Below, piece by piece: positions 31,909 to 44,268 of a stretch of DNA of 64,000 nucleotides. Each line of letters begins with the position of its first letter. Position 1 is the first letter of the stretch. The position numbers and the translations under genes are program-made. Below the pieces are notes generated by a model. The model saw only the letters and a list, made by a program, of their open reading frames with translations. It had not been told where the DNA came from and searched no databases. Origin of the DNA: a bacterium (lineage in GTDB: Bacteria; Patescibacteriota; Saccharimonadia; Saccharimonadales; UBA4665); NCBI GenBank assembly GCA_021783725.1, contig JAJXTN010000002.1, positions 1 through 64,000 on the forward strand, given 5' to 3'.

Positions 31909-32162
31909 GCGTTGACCACTAACGATTAGCGATTAGCAAATTCCAAATTACAATGAATTATCAATTAACATTTAGCAATATTAGAACAACTGGAACTATT
32001 AGCGATTAGCTAGTAGCAATTTACTATGAATTATCAATTAGCTATTAACCAAGAACGGTCCAATTGCCAATGGCCAACTGCCAATTCATTGCCATTAGCT
32101 AATTGTCAATTGCTAATCACCAGTCGCTTGTCCTTTGCTAATAGCAAATTGGTAATTGCCCC
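31909..32162. repeat. AT-rich stretch with imperfect tandem repeats before recR
   Basis: 254 bp without a gene. ATTAGCGATTAGC occurs near 31925 and 31998, and ATGAATTATCAATTA at 31953-31967 and 32026-32040, giving an imperfect repeat of about 73-75 bp. The rest is made of short words such as CAATTGCCAATGGCCA and ATTAGCTAATTG with inverted symmetry. No promoter box or ORF is clear. Confidence 0.65.
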
Positions 32163-39538: not shown

Positions 39539-39676
39539 GATTTTTCACCATTATACCCTATAAATCGACTAATCTGACAGGCCTAGCAGTTGTACAACAC
39601 CCAAAAATACGCTAAAATTCAATCTGTTTGACGCAGTCGGCAGACTATAAAATGCCCTAGATTCAACAATTTATAT

Positions 39677-39924
39677 TGGGGATTGGCCAAGTGGTAAGGC
39701 ACCACCCTTAGTTGCTTGCAACTAAAAAGTTATATGTGGTACTGATCAGTACCAAAAACAGTCGTCATACTATAATATGTAACAGATTAACAATCTACGT
39801 TGGGGATTGGCCAAGTGGTAAGGCACCACCCTTAGTTGCTTGCAACTAAAAAGTTATATGTGGTACTGATCAGTACCAAAAACAGTCGTCATACTATAAT
39901 ATGTAACAGATTAACAATCTACGT
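39677..39924 (+). repeat. two exact 124-bp tandem copies of the tRNA-Gln 5' region
   Basis: 39677-39800 and 39801-39924 are identical. Each starts with 27-28 nt of tRNA-Gln (acceptor 5' strand and D-arm), then hairpin TTAGTTG-CTTG-CAACTAA, the perfect palindrome GGTACTGATCAGTACC, and a stretch with TATAAT resembling the upstream tRNA promoter region. The real tRNA-Gln follows at 39925. Each copy therefore makes a tRNA-Gln 5' fragment joined to new hairpins. Confidence 0.9.
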
Positions 39925-39996
39925 TGGGGATTGGCCAAGTGGTAAGGCACCAGTTTTTGGTACTGGCATTCGGGGGTTCGAATCCCTCATCCCCAG
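39925..39996 (+). tRNA. tRNA-Gln(TTG)
   Basis: Acceptor TGGGGAT pairs with ATCCCCA, anticodon stem CCAGT/ACTGG with loop TTTTGGT and anticodon TTG, T-arm GGGGGTTCGAATCCCTC, discriminator G; CCA encoded at 39997-39999. Preceded by two partial copies of its own 5' part. Confidence 0.95.
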
Positions 39997-40036
39997 CCAT
40001 GAAAAAACCTCGGCGAAAGTCGGGGTTTTTTCATGG
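39997..40036 (+). terminator. intrinsic terminator of tRNA-Gln
   Basis: CCATGAAAAAACC pairs perfectly with GGTTTTTTCATGG, continued inward by a GC-rich stem with a GAAA tetraloop. Outer arm includes the encoded CCA. Works in both orientations by symmetry of the A/T runs. Confidence 0.85.
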
Positions 40037-40044
40037 CTCAGAGT

Positions 40045-40181
40045 GGTTCAAACTCCCGAGTGAGCATTCGGGGTGAAGATTGCCGGTGGCAATCTGCAGG
40101 GGAGCCAACTCTTGCAAACTAGTTTGCAAAGATGTTGCGACGGGCCTGCCAAAGGTAGGTCGAATCCCTCATCCCCAGCCA
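40045..40181 (+). ncRNA. structured RNA module with tRNA-like 3' end, copy 1
   Basis: 137 bp folding into four hairpins: CCCGA/TCGGG; AGATTGCC-GGT-GGCAATCT; TTGCAAAC-TA-GTTTGCAA; CCTGCC-AAA-GGTAGG. It ends with a 21-nt exact copy of the tRNA-Gln 3' end including CCA (40161-40181). A hairpin with a T-run follows. Copy 2 at 44125-44268 keeps the hairpins with different sequences. No ORF. Confidence 0.65.
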
Positions 40182-40182
40182 T

Positions 40183-40229
40183 CCTCCGTCGCAGACCTCT
40201 TTATGAGGTCAGCTATGGAGGATTTTTTG
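40183..40229 (+). terminator. terminator-like module after structured RNA, copy 1
   Basis: CCTCC...GGAGG encloses GACCTC-TTTAT-GAGGTC and is followed by ATTTTTT. Directly follows the tRNA-like CCA end. A related copy lies at 44073-44117. Confidence 0.75.
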
Positions 40230-40345
40230 TGATGAGGGATACGAACCCGTAGGGTTCGGCAGATGAGCCACAGAAACATAATTATGTTAAGTAACAAATA
40301 CGGTGTGTGGCGAAGCCTCGCGATATCCCTCACCATCTCCGAACA
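40230..40345 (+). repeat. inverted/direct tRNA-end module
   Basis: Starts with GATGAGGGATACGAACCC, close to the inverted complement of the tRNA-Gln T-arm and acceptor, and ends with GATATCCCTCACC. Inside: CGAACCC-GTA-GGGTTCG, GCCACA/TGTGTGGC and ACATAATTATGT. No ORF. Confidence 0.55.
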
Positions 40346-40360
40346 CGCCAAAGCAGAGAA

Positions 40361-40406
40361 GGACCCTGAATCAAGTTCAGGGCAGGCTCCGTCCGCTATC
40401 CCTCAT
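40361..40406 (+). repeat. 46-bp dispersed hairpin repeat, copy 2
   Basis: Identical to 2228-2273. Hairpin CCCTGAA/TTCAGGG followed by GTCCGCTATCCCTCAT; the bases after it (TCCCAGC) resemble a tRNA acceptor end again. Confidence 0.9.
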
Positions 40407-40450
40407 TCCCAGCAAGCAAATAACAAAGATTATTCTGATATAATACCGGC

Positions 40451-40779: not shown

Positions 40780-40936
40780 AGGGGGGTATAGAACCCATTG
40801 CATAGCAATTTGGGGTACGGTACAGCGAGTACGCACGCACCCGGCCTCCTAGCAGGAAGTCGGAGGACACTCTGACGCGGAAATGGACCCTGAATCAAGT
40901 TCAGGGCAGGCTCCGTCCACTATCCCTAACCCCCAT
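40780..40936. repeat. tRNA-end module with 46-bp repeat, copy 3
   Basis: Left end (from about 40771) reads on the minus strand as a tRNA 3' end with T-arm GGTTCTATACC and final CCGCCA. Right end is the third 46-bp repeat (40885-40930, diverged to ACTATCCCTAAC). The right end ATCCCTAACCCCC partly matches the inverse of the left end. No ORF. Confidence 0.55.
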
Positions 40937-44072: not shown

Positions 44073-44117
44073 CCTCCGTCGCAGACCTTTTATCAGATCA
44101 GCTATGGAGGATTTTTA
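44073..44117 (+). terminator. terminator-like module, copy 2
   Basis: CCTCCGTCGCAGACC and AGCTATGGAGGATTTTT match 40183-40229; the inner stem has lost part of its pairing. Preceded by AGCCA, followed by structured module copy 2. Confidence 0.65.
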
Positions 44118-44124
44118 TTGTGAA

Positions 44125-44268
44125 GGGTTAAACTCCCGAGTGAGCATTCGGGGTGATCCGGCTTTCATCCTGAAGGCCGGAGCAAGGCAATCTTCTCTTG
44201 AAAGCTATGCTTTCAAAGATGAACTCGCGGGCCTGCAGAAGGTAGGTTGAACCTCTAATCCCCAGCCA
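44125..44268 (+). ncRNA. structured RNA module with tRNA-like 3' end, copy 2
   Basis: 144 bp. Hairpins: CCCGA/TCGGG (identical to copy 1); CCGGCTTTCA-TCC-TGAAGGCCGG (unrelated sequence, same place); TTGAAAGC-TAT-GCTTTCAA; CCTGC-AGAAG-GTAGG. Ends in GAACCTCTAATCCCCAGCCA, a diverged tRNA-Gln-like 3' end with CCA. The helices differ from copy 1 by compensating changes. Confidence 0.65.

Follow-up and report, generated by a model that had tools for sequence, protein, structure and literature searches.

tRNA genes are classic insertion targets of mobile DNA, and the segment at their 3' end is the usual attachment segment of tRNA-targeting integrases. Here we describe a set of tRNA-associated cassettes in the bacterial order Saccharimonadales that share with such integrative elements the targeting of a tRNA gene, the working tRNA that is left in place and a direct repeat of the tRNA 3' end; however, the cassettes carry no integrase or cargo, they also repeat 5' parts of the tRNA and they are interrupted at several sites within it. 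Their main module, a structured insert that we call INS, resembles MITEs and other small non-autonomous elements in that it is about 90–110 bp long, has sharp ends, moves, nests within itself and lacks coding capacity. Unlike MITEs, INS showed no target-site duplication and has no terminal inverted repeats, and it is almost strictly associated with tRNA genes, where it is accompanied by a partial duplication of the tRNA. REP/BIME sequences with RAYT (REPtrons) are comparable in being short, folded, multi-copy and non-coding, in their strand-specific folding and in that RAYT co-occurs genome-wise with INS. INS differs from them in being longer, with three hairpins, and in being tied to pieces of tRNA, while the RAYT genes found here have other flanking palindromes and are missing from some INS-rich genomes.

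Insertions have been described in the rRNA genes of CPR bacteria (PMC11270868). Together with group I and group II introns, insertions in the tRNA and rRNA genes of CPR bacteria are akin to the cassettes, in which a structured insert lies in an RNA gene within the same bacterial radiation. However, at 86–112 nt INS is too short for an intron core, and an intact gene adjoins the interrupted copy. An identity of INS as a group I or II intron was rejected, since Rfam gave no intron match and, in most copies, excision would not restore the tRNA copy in full, about 2 nt being lost. Pseudo-tRNAs such as tRNA-Other of Bacillus cereus, which has a phenotype (PMC3399842), are likewise extra tRNA-like genes that are not used in translation, whereas the cassettes, which occur at many tRNA genes of an entire order, combine partial tRNA with a conserved insert. 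Neither INS nor the cassettes had a match in Rfam or in the open-access papers searched, which dealt with non-coding RNA of Saccharibacteria, tRNA repeats, riboswitches and RAYT; as far as Rfam and these papers extend, this is a widespread and previously undescribed set in Saccharibacteria.

The window, by which we mean the whole analysed stretch of 64,000 nucleotides from contig JAJXTN010000002.1, belongs to a genome of 843 kb in 19 contigs that is 97.8% complete. The features around its tRNA-Gln(TTG) gene are collected in Table 1. The first-pass annotation of this DNA had reported an exact 124-bp tandem repeat ahead of the true tRNA-Gln, and both parts of that description hold, with the two copies being 100% identical and the intact gene following them directly. 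Chance was ruled out as the source of the tandem, and its exact identity points to the recent duplication or gene conversion that had been proposed; we infer that recombination recently produced the second copy as a tandem duplicate. Each unit opens with nucleotides 1–28 of tRNA-Gln, which reach into the anticodon stem, and what had been called the 5' half of the tRNA is thus a 5' part slightly shorter than half. A module with a 7-bp hairpin, referred to here as M, stands where the anticodon loop would be, and after this hairpin the 3' strand of the anticodon stem is joined to its own reverse complement, producing a palindrome. The hairpin and perfect palindrome described for each unit were recovered, the palindrome being TGGTACTGATCAGTACCA at 39737–39754 in copy 1, and it extends to CAGTACCAAAAAC (39747–39759), the reverse complement of the anticodon arm. 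Both copies have a TATAAT box, and the stretch before copy 1, to which the units had been likened, is indeed a diverged version of the unit but reads TATAAA at this position.

Table 1. Features at and near the tRNA-Gln(TTG) gene of the window, with the evidence for each.
Feature	Position	Strand	Evidence
Promoter region before unit 1, diverged version of the in-unit promoter region	39634–39676	+	85% identity to unit over 71 bp (39634–39704); start of the tandem array
Upstream cassette (U-type), copy 1	39677–39800	+	Repeat identity; homologues in G085, G113 and G101
Copy 1, tRNA-Gln nt 1–28	39677–39704	+	
Copy 1, module M hairpin (7 bp)	39708–39725	+	
Copy 1, anticodon-stem 3' strand and reverse complement	39737–39759	+	
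Copy 1, -10-like box	39771–39776	+	
Upstream cassette, copy 2, same sequence as copy 1 (-10-like box at 39895–39900)	39801–39924	+	
Intact tRNA-Gln(TTG), anticodon UUG	39925–39999	+	ARAGORN; Rfam RF00005, 62.9 bits
Terminator-like hairpin, stem extending into the tRNA 3' end	39995–40038	+	Inverted repeat I6, 94% complementary
Degenerate T-arm reverse complement, then 10-nt tRNA copy GCATTCGGGG	40045–40073	+	Sequence; same layout in G101 and other D cassettes
INS with hairpins P1, P2 and P3, at the T-loop position of the tRNA 3' copy, starting after G	40074–40159	+	R1 77.4 bits, 2.6e-18 within the window; covariation
Last 22 nt of tRNA-Gln, repeated exactly	40160–40181	+	22/22 match; chance expectation none
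Second terminator-like hairpin, which closes off the downstream cassette	40180–40229	+	Sequence; same block after tRNA-Gln(CTG), contig C5
More degenerate downstream cassettes, other modules between T-arm pieces	40230–40416	+	Repeats D3, D4, I5 and I7
Orphan tRNA-Gln downstream cassette 4 kb off, degenerate INS at 44171–44233	44090–44260	+	R1 21.5 bits, E 0.001; tRNA-Gln 3' pieces on both sides

The exact 124-bp sequence had no match in 257 Gb of genomes, and the neighbouring hydrolase gene had no relatives among viral contigs. Homologous units were nevertheless found in three other genera, each with a single unit, so that with the source genome three families are represented. A family-wide search recovered one homologue with 124-nt spacing before tRNA-Gln in G085; the same module M is present in another family (G113), there with an INS in the D-loop; and a covariance model of M, R2, run on 392 genomes of the order, found a match in a third family (G101, E 1.4e-11) and no other convincing one. 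In all four genomes the unit with M lies directly before tRNA-Gln(TTG), and G101 mirrors the entire layout of the window: a single M unit precedes the tRNA, which is followed by a terminator and then by an INS cassette. Within the two hairpins of M, five pairs have changed on both sides among three sequences, a number matched by only 3 of 500 shuffles. In the 124-bp tandem a conserved upstream cassette is present twice, the second copy being recent, and we read the unit as the conserved, recently re-duplicated Gln member of a class of tRNA-targeting modules. M is known only at tRNA-Gln(TTG), and thus mobility has been demonstrated for INS, described below, and not for M.

In the downstream cassette of the window (40045–40181) the last 22 nt of the tRNA stand behind an 86-nt INS. 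A covariance model, R1, was made from an alignment of 14 INS copies; of the 392 genomes sampled from the order, 115 match it, often with 5–14 copies each, and a phylum-wide sample of 314 genomes gave nine positive genomes, all from this order and none from outside it. A pattern scan of 257 Gb found INS in tRNA context only in Saccharibacteria/Patescibacteria records, and the one match in viral contigs was not at a tRNA and is attributed to chance. INS has a strongly covarying fold: across 127 distinct copies 94.6% of paired cells hold standard pairs, and the covariation score is 0.595, compared with 0.176 after shuffling and at most 0.132 in slid controls. In P1, 8 of 8 pairs have changed on both sides, and the excess of G-U over A-C pairs (36 vs 6) implies that the folding constraint acts on one strand as a single strand, either RNA or single-stranded DNA; this could equally mean that the product is a useful RNA. 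Rfam covariance models run on the inserts at permissive thresholds returned only tRNA and chance matches, with no other family at or near its gathering score.

INS recurs within extra, interrupted tRNA copies that adjoin intact tRNAs, an arrangement seen for almost all copies inspected. A tight offset from an intact same-strand tRNA was seen for 68 of 92 INS copies, with upstream copies starting mostly 110–160 nt before the tRNA and downstream ones 68–92 nt past its end, and the rest are mostly further array units or lie at contig ends. In a genome assembled as a single contig (G126), a tRNA adjoins 13 of the 14 copies, and the other copy is an orphan 3' piece. At two loci (L142 and L152, in G167 and G360) the partial copy that holds INS runs antisense to tRNA-Phe and keeps the usual hairpin arrangement, which suggests that the tRNA sense strand is not strictly needed. 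INS cassettes were found at Pro, Ser, Trp, Lys, Gln, Leu, Gly, Arg, Val and Glu tRNAs and also at Ala, Phe, Met, Tyr, His and Ile tRNAs, with Asn less certain. Almost every tRNA species of the order is represented in the class. The insert occupies D-loop, 25/26, anticodon-loop or T-loop positions of the tRNA copy. Upstream cassettes run from tRNA nucleotide 1 to about 17, 24, 37 or 53, up to the insert edge (5' parts of 17–67 nt), downstream cassettes hold the last 20–22 nt of the tRNA, mostly mismatch-free, and in most copies the tRNA pieces are exact up to the edge of the insert. Nearly all inserts read are preceded by G, and about two nucleotides of target seem to have been replaced, with the boundaries judged by eye; at those inspected no target-site duplication was seen, about 2 nt of target being missing instead, and INS has no terminal inverted repeats, its ends being TGA...GTGAC. 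In many cassettes the tRNA pieces have decayed while INS is intact, and thus the constraint sits on the insert. In our reading of these sequences, the insert would lie between a helix of the preceding tRNA bases and a helix of the following ones, both completed by short reverse complements, and the upstream and downstream cassettes may be circular permutations of one junction.

INS also moves as a unit with defined ends. In G105 two copies that are 99% identical occupy different tRNA-Glu sites with unrelated flanks on both sides, and a similar pair in G154 is 98% identical. INS was also found inside INS at three loci (L256 626–800, L114 1501–1650 and L173 518–660), always at the CGGG linker before P3. 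Similarity between INS copies is 0.778 within a genome, 0.731 at the same tRNA in other genomes and 0.712 elsewhere. The sharp ends, the self-nesting and the 99% identity between unrelated flanks indicate that INS is, or was, mobile. Assemblies often break at or near cassettes (for example G172:C30, G103:C12, G158:C1 and G158:C32), and thus the copy numbers are probably underestimated.

On balance, and with modest confidence in the explanation as a whole, we consider it probable that the 124-bp units are upstream tRNA cassettes of a selfish class of tRNA-targeting modules. In a cassette, part of the adjacent tRNA is copied and joined to a compact folded module, as well as to a short stretch that is the reverse complement of the copied piece; the upstream form has the tRNA 5' part with its own promoter, the downstream form the last ~21 nt, often with its own terminator, and an intact copy of the same tRNA lies beside either. 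The modules would be selfish elements with a preference for tRNA genes as insertion sites, and the only survivors would be arrangements that keep an intact tRNA. Those cassette promoters that remain would probably give, as a by-product, short chimeric tRNA-module RNAs or extra transcription into the tRNA. A selfish origin is the simplest reading, given that INS is patchily distributed, nests and has jumped between sites. The suggestion in the first-pass annotation of a tiny element that rebuilds the tRNA comes close to this comparative picture and is partly supported, while the conservation of the unit in other genera, the structured insert 3' of the tRNA and the cassettes flanking most tRNA species across the order go beyond that annotation. 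A more far-reaching proposal, which we put forward tentatively, is that the modules represent a new mobile class of structured RNA. Their niche would be the tRNA gene: they would insert into tRNA copies as arms of a junction whose several helices consist of tRNA sequence and its reverse complement, with circularly permuted upstream and downstream forms; the RNA, as a ribozyme or bound by protein, would drive its own copying, and the chimeric RNAs might regulate the neighbouring tRNA in some lineages.

The alternative that survives best, and that we regard as rather unlikely, is that cassettes are kept for function, as tRNA-like small RNAs or as leader or trailer switches that would tune the neighbouring tRNA, with possible roles as decoys for tRNA-binding proteins or nucleases or through alternative pairing with tRNA halves. 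The best argument for function is that M, with its compensated hairpins, is conserved at the same place, tRNA-Gln, in three families, and the covariation and G-U bias of INS point in the same direction. A good -10 box is present in 12 of 23 unit promoters, compared with 19 of 23 intact tRNAs and 7 of 65 random sites, although this partial retention fits half-decayed promoters as well as weak selection. Downstream terminators are likewise above random, in counts that are lower bounds since the strict terminator finder missed several obvious ones. In a transcript of the window's tRNA and downstream cassette, the 5' strand of the tRNA is predicted to pair with the 3' copy in the cassette, which would favour a function. 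The downstream cassettes are themselves sited behind a terminator, with no promoter seen, and this argues against a function. The side of the tRNA on which a cassette lies shows a preference per isoacceptor, concordant between families in 141 of 230 pairs against 114 expected (18 of 5000 shuffles), and some exact INS sites recur in different families; both hot spots and long retention are possible causes. By contrast, INS is present in only about 30% of the genomes of the order, the carrier tRNAs differ between related species, tRNA pieces are often decayed beside an intact INS, and INS nests and jumps between sites, all of which sit poorly with a maintained function. The narrower suggestion that the units would deliberately make tRNA-Gln 5' fragments as decoys is neither supported nor excluded. 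A copied promoter in the upstream units was also considered and rejected, since the similarity of unit promoters to tRNA promoters is on average no higher than that between unrelated loci (0.384 vs 0.369), although it is clear in the window.

With regard to how the selfish modules that we favour might move, one candidate would make INS a REP-like hairpin moved by RAYT (Y1) transposases, which we consider improbable. RAYT-like Y1 proteins are encoded by 26 of 40 INS carriers and 4 of 40 non-carriers (Fisher p 5e-7), in sets hand-picked from the R1 search of the order and with statistics that ignore phylogeny; a few RAYT genes adjoin tRNA cassettes (L278 and L281), and folding as a single strand would fit. 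However, in 20 regions the RAYT genes have flanking palindromes other than INS, such as CCAAGACCTGGTCTTGG, with INS near only some of them, at tRNAs, and INS has no short REP form. Furthermore, a RAYT match is absent from the INS-rich genomes G193, G099 and G130, and the near-complete G193 lacks any Y1 candidate. RAYT as the mobiliser was therefore rejected, as a genome-level association without the REPtron layout and with counter-example genomes, and it is kept as a lead only. The source genome contains three RAYT-like genes (L275 2304–2918, L276 on the minus strand and L277 1946–2593), with short flanking palindromes such as CAAGGTGAGACCTTG. Reverse transcriptase was also rejected as the mobiliser, with RVT_1 found in 8 of 40 carriers and 10 of 40 non-carriers (p 0.79).

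It is very improbable that the cassettes are remnants of phage or integrative-element attachment sites, that is, tRNA 3' direct repeats left by integrations and deletions. Such an origin would account for the exact repetition of the tRNA 3' end in downstream cassettes, but the upstream cassettes repeat 5' parts of varying length, the same INS occupies all four positions across all tRNA species, and the window repeats, 182 bp apart, enclose only INS, hairpins and tRNA pieces, with no integrase or cargo, which already disfavours this origin. Least credible is an assembly artefact or plain pseudogene, in which broken tRNA copies from unequal crossing-over would have no meaning, for although the two units are exactly identical and their copy number of two rests on one assembly, identical or near-identical tandem cassettes recur at other tRNAs in other assemblies (L127, L132, L168, L068 and L209/L221), homologous single units with compensatory changes occur in three other genera and covariation extends over 127 distinct INS copies, so that this alternative is largely refuted except as regards the copy number.

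The interest of the 124-bp tandem lies in the class to which it belongs, namely a structured element of under 120 bases that is almost confined to partial tRNA copies and that flanks, on one side or the other, nearly all tRNA species of a bacterial order. The cassettes provide small, testable cases of how an element uses essential genes without killing its host, and they may explain assembly breaks and pseudo-tRNAs at Saccharibacteria tRNA loci. If the RNAs are expressed, bacteria that live on other bacteria would have a novel type of tRNA-linked RNA.

Further modules were observed within the window. Besides a terminator-like hairpin and a reverse T-arm, the block at 40230–40335 contains a GGGTTCG hairpin and an insert of another kind, GCAGATGAGCCAC...GTGTGTGGC, and the same type of block recurs after tRNA-Gln(CTG) on contig C5 (L118), and hence after both tRNA-Gln genes; this seems to be a second module type with the same architecture. 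A 69-nt repeat (84%) at 40343–40411 and 40867–40935 has a hairpin, CCCTGAATCAAGTTCAGGG, with a tRNA-Gln 3'-like piece at its end, and modules of the form GAGAAG...CCGCTATCCC by tRNA-Gln in G078 (L018) resemble it, which perhaps points to a third module family. Finally, an imperfect 25-bp tandem repeat in two copies lies at 32063–32111 and is unrelated to the tRNA cassettes.
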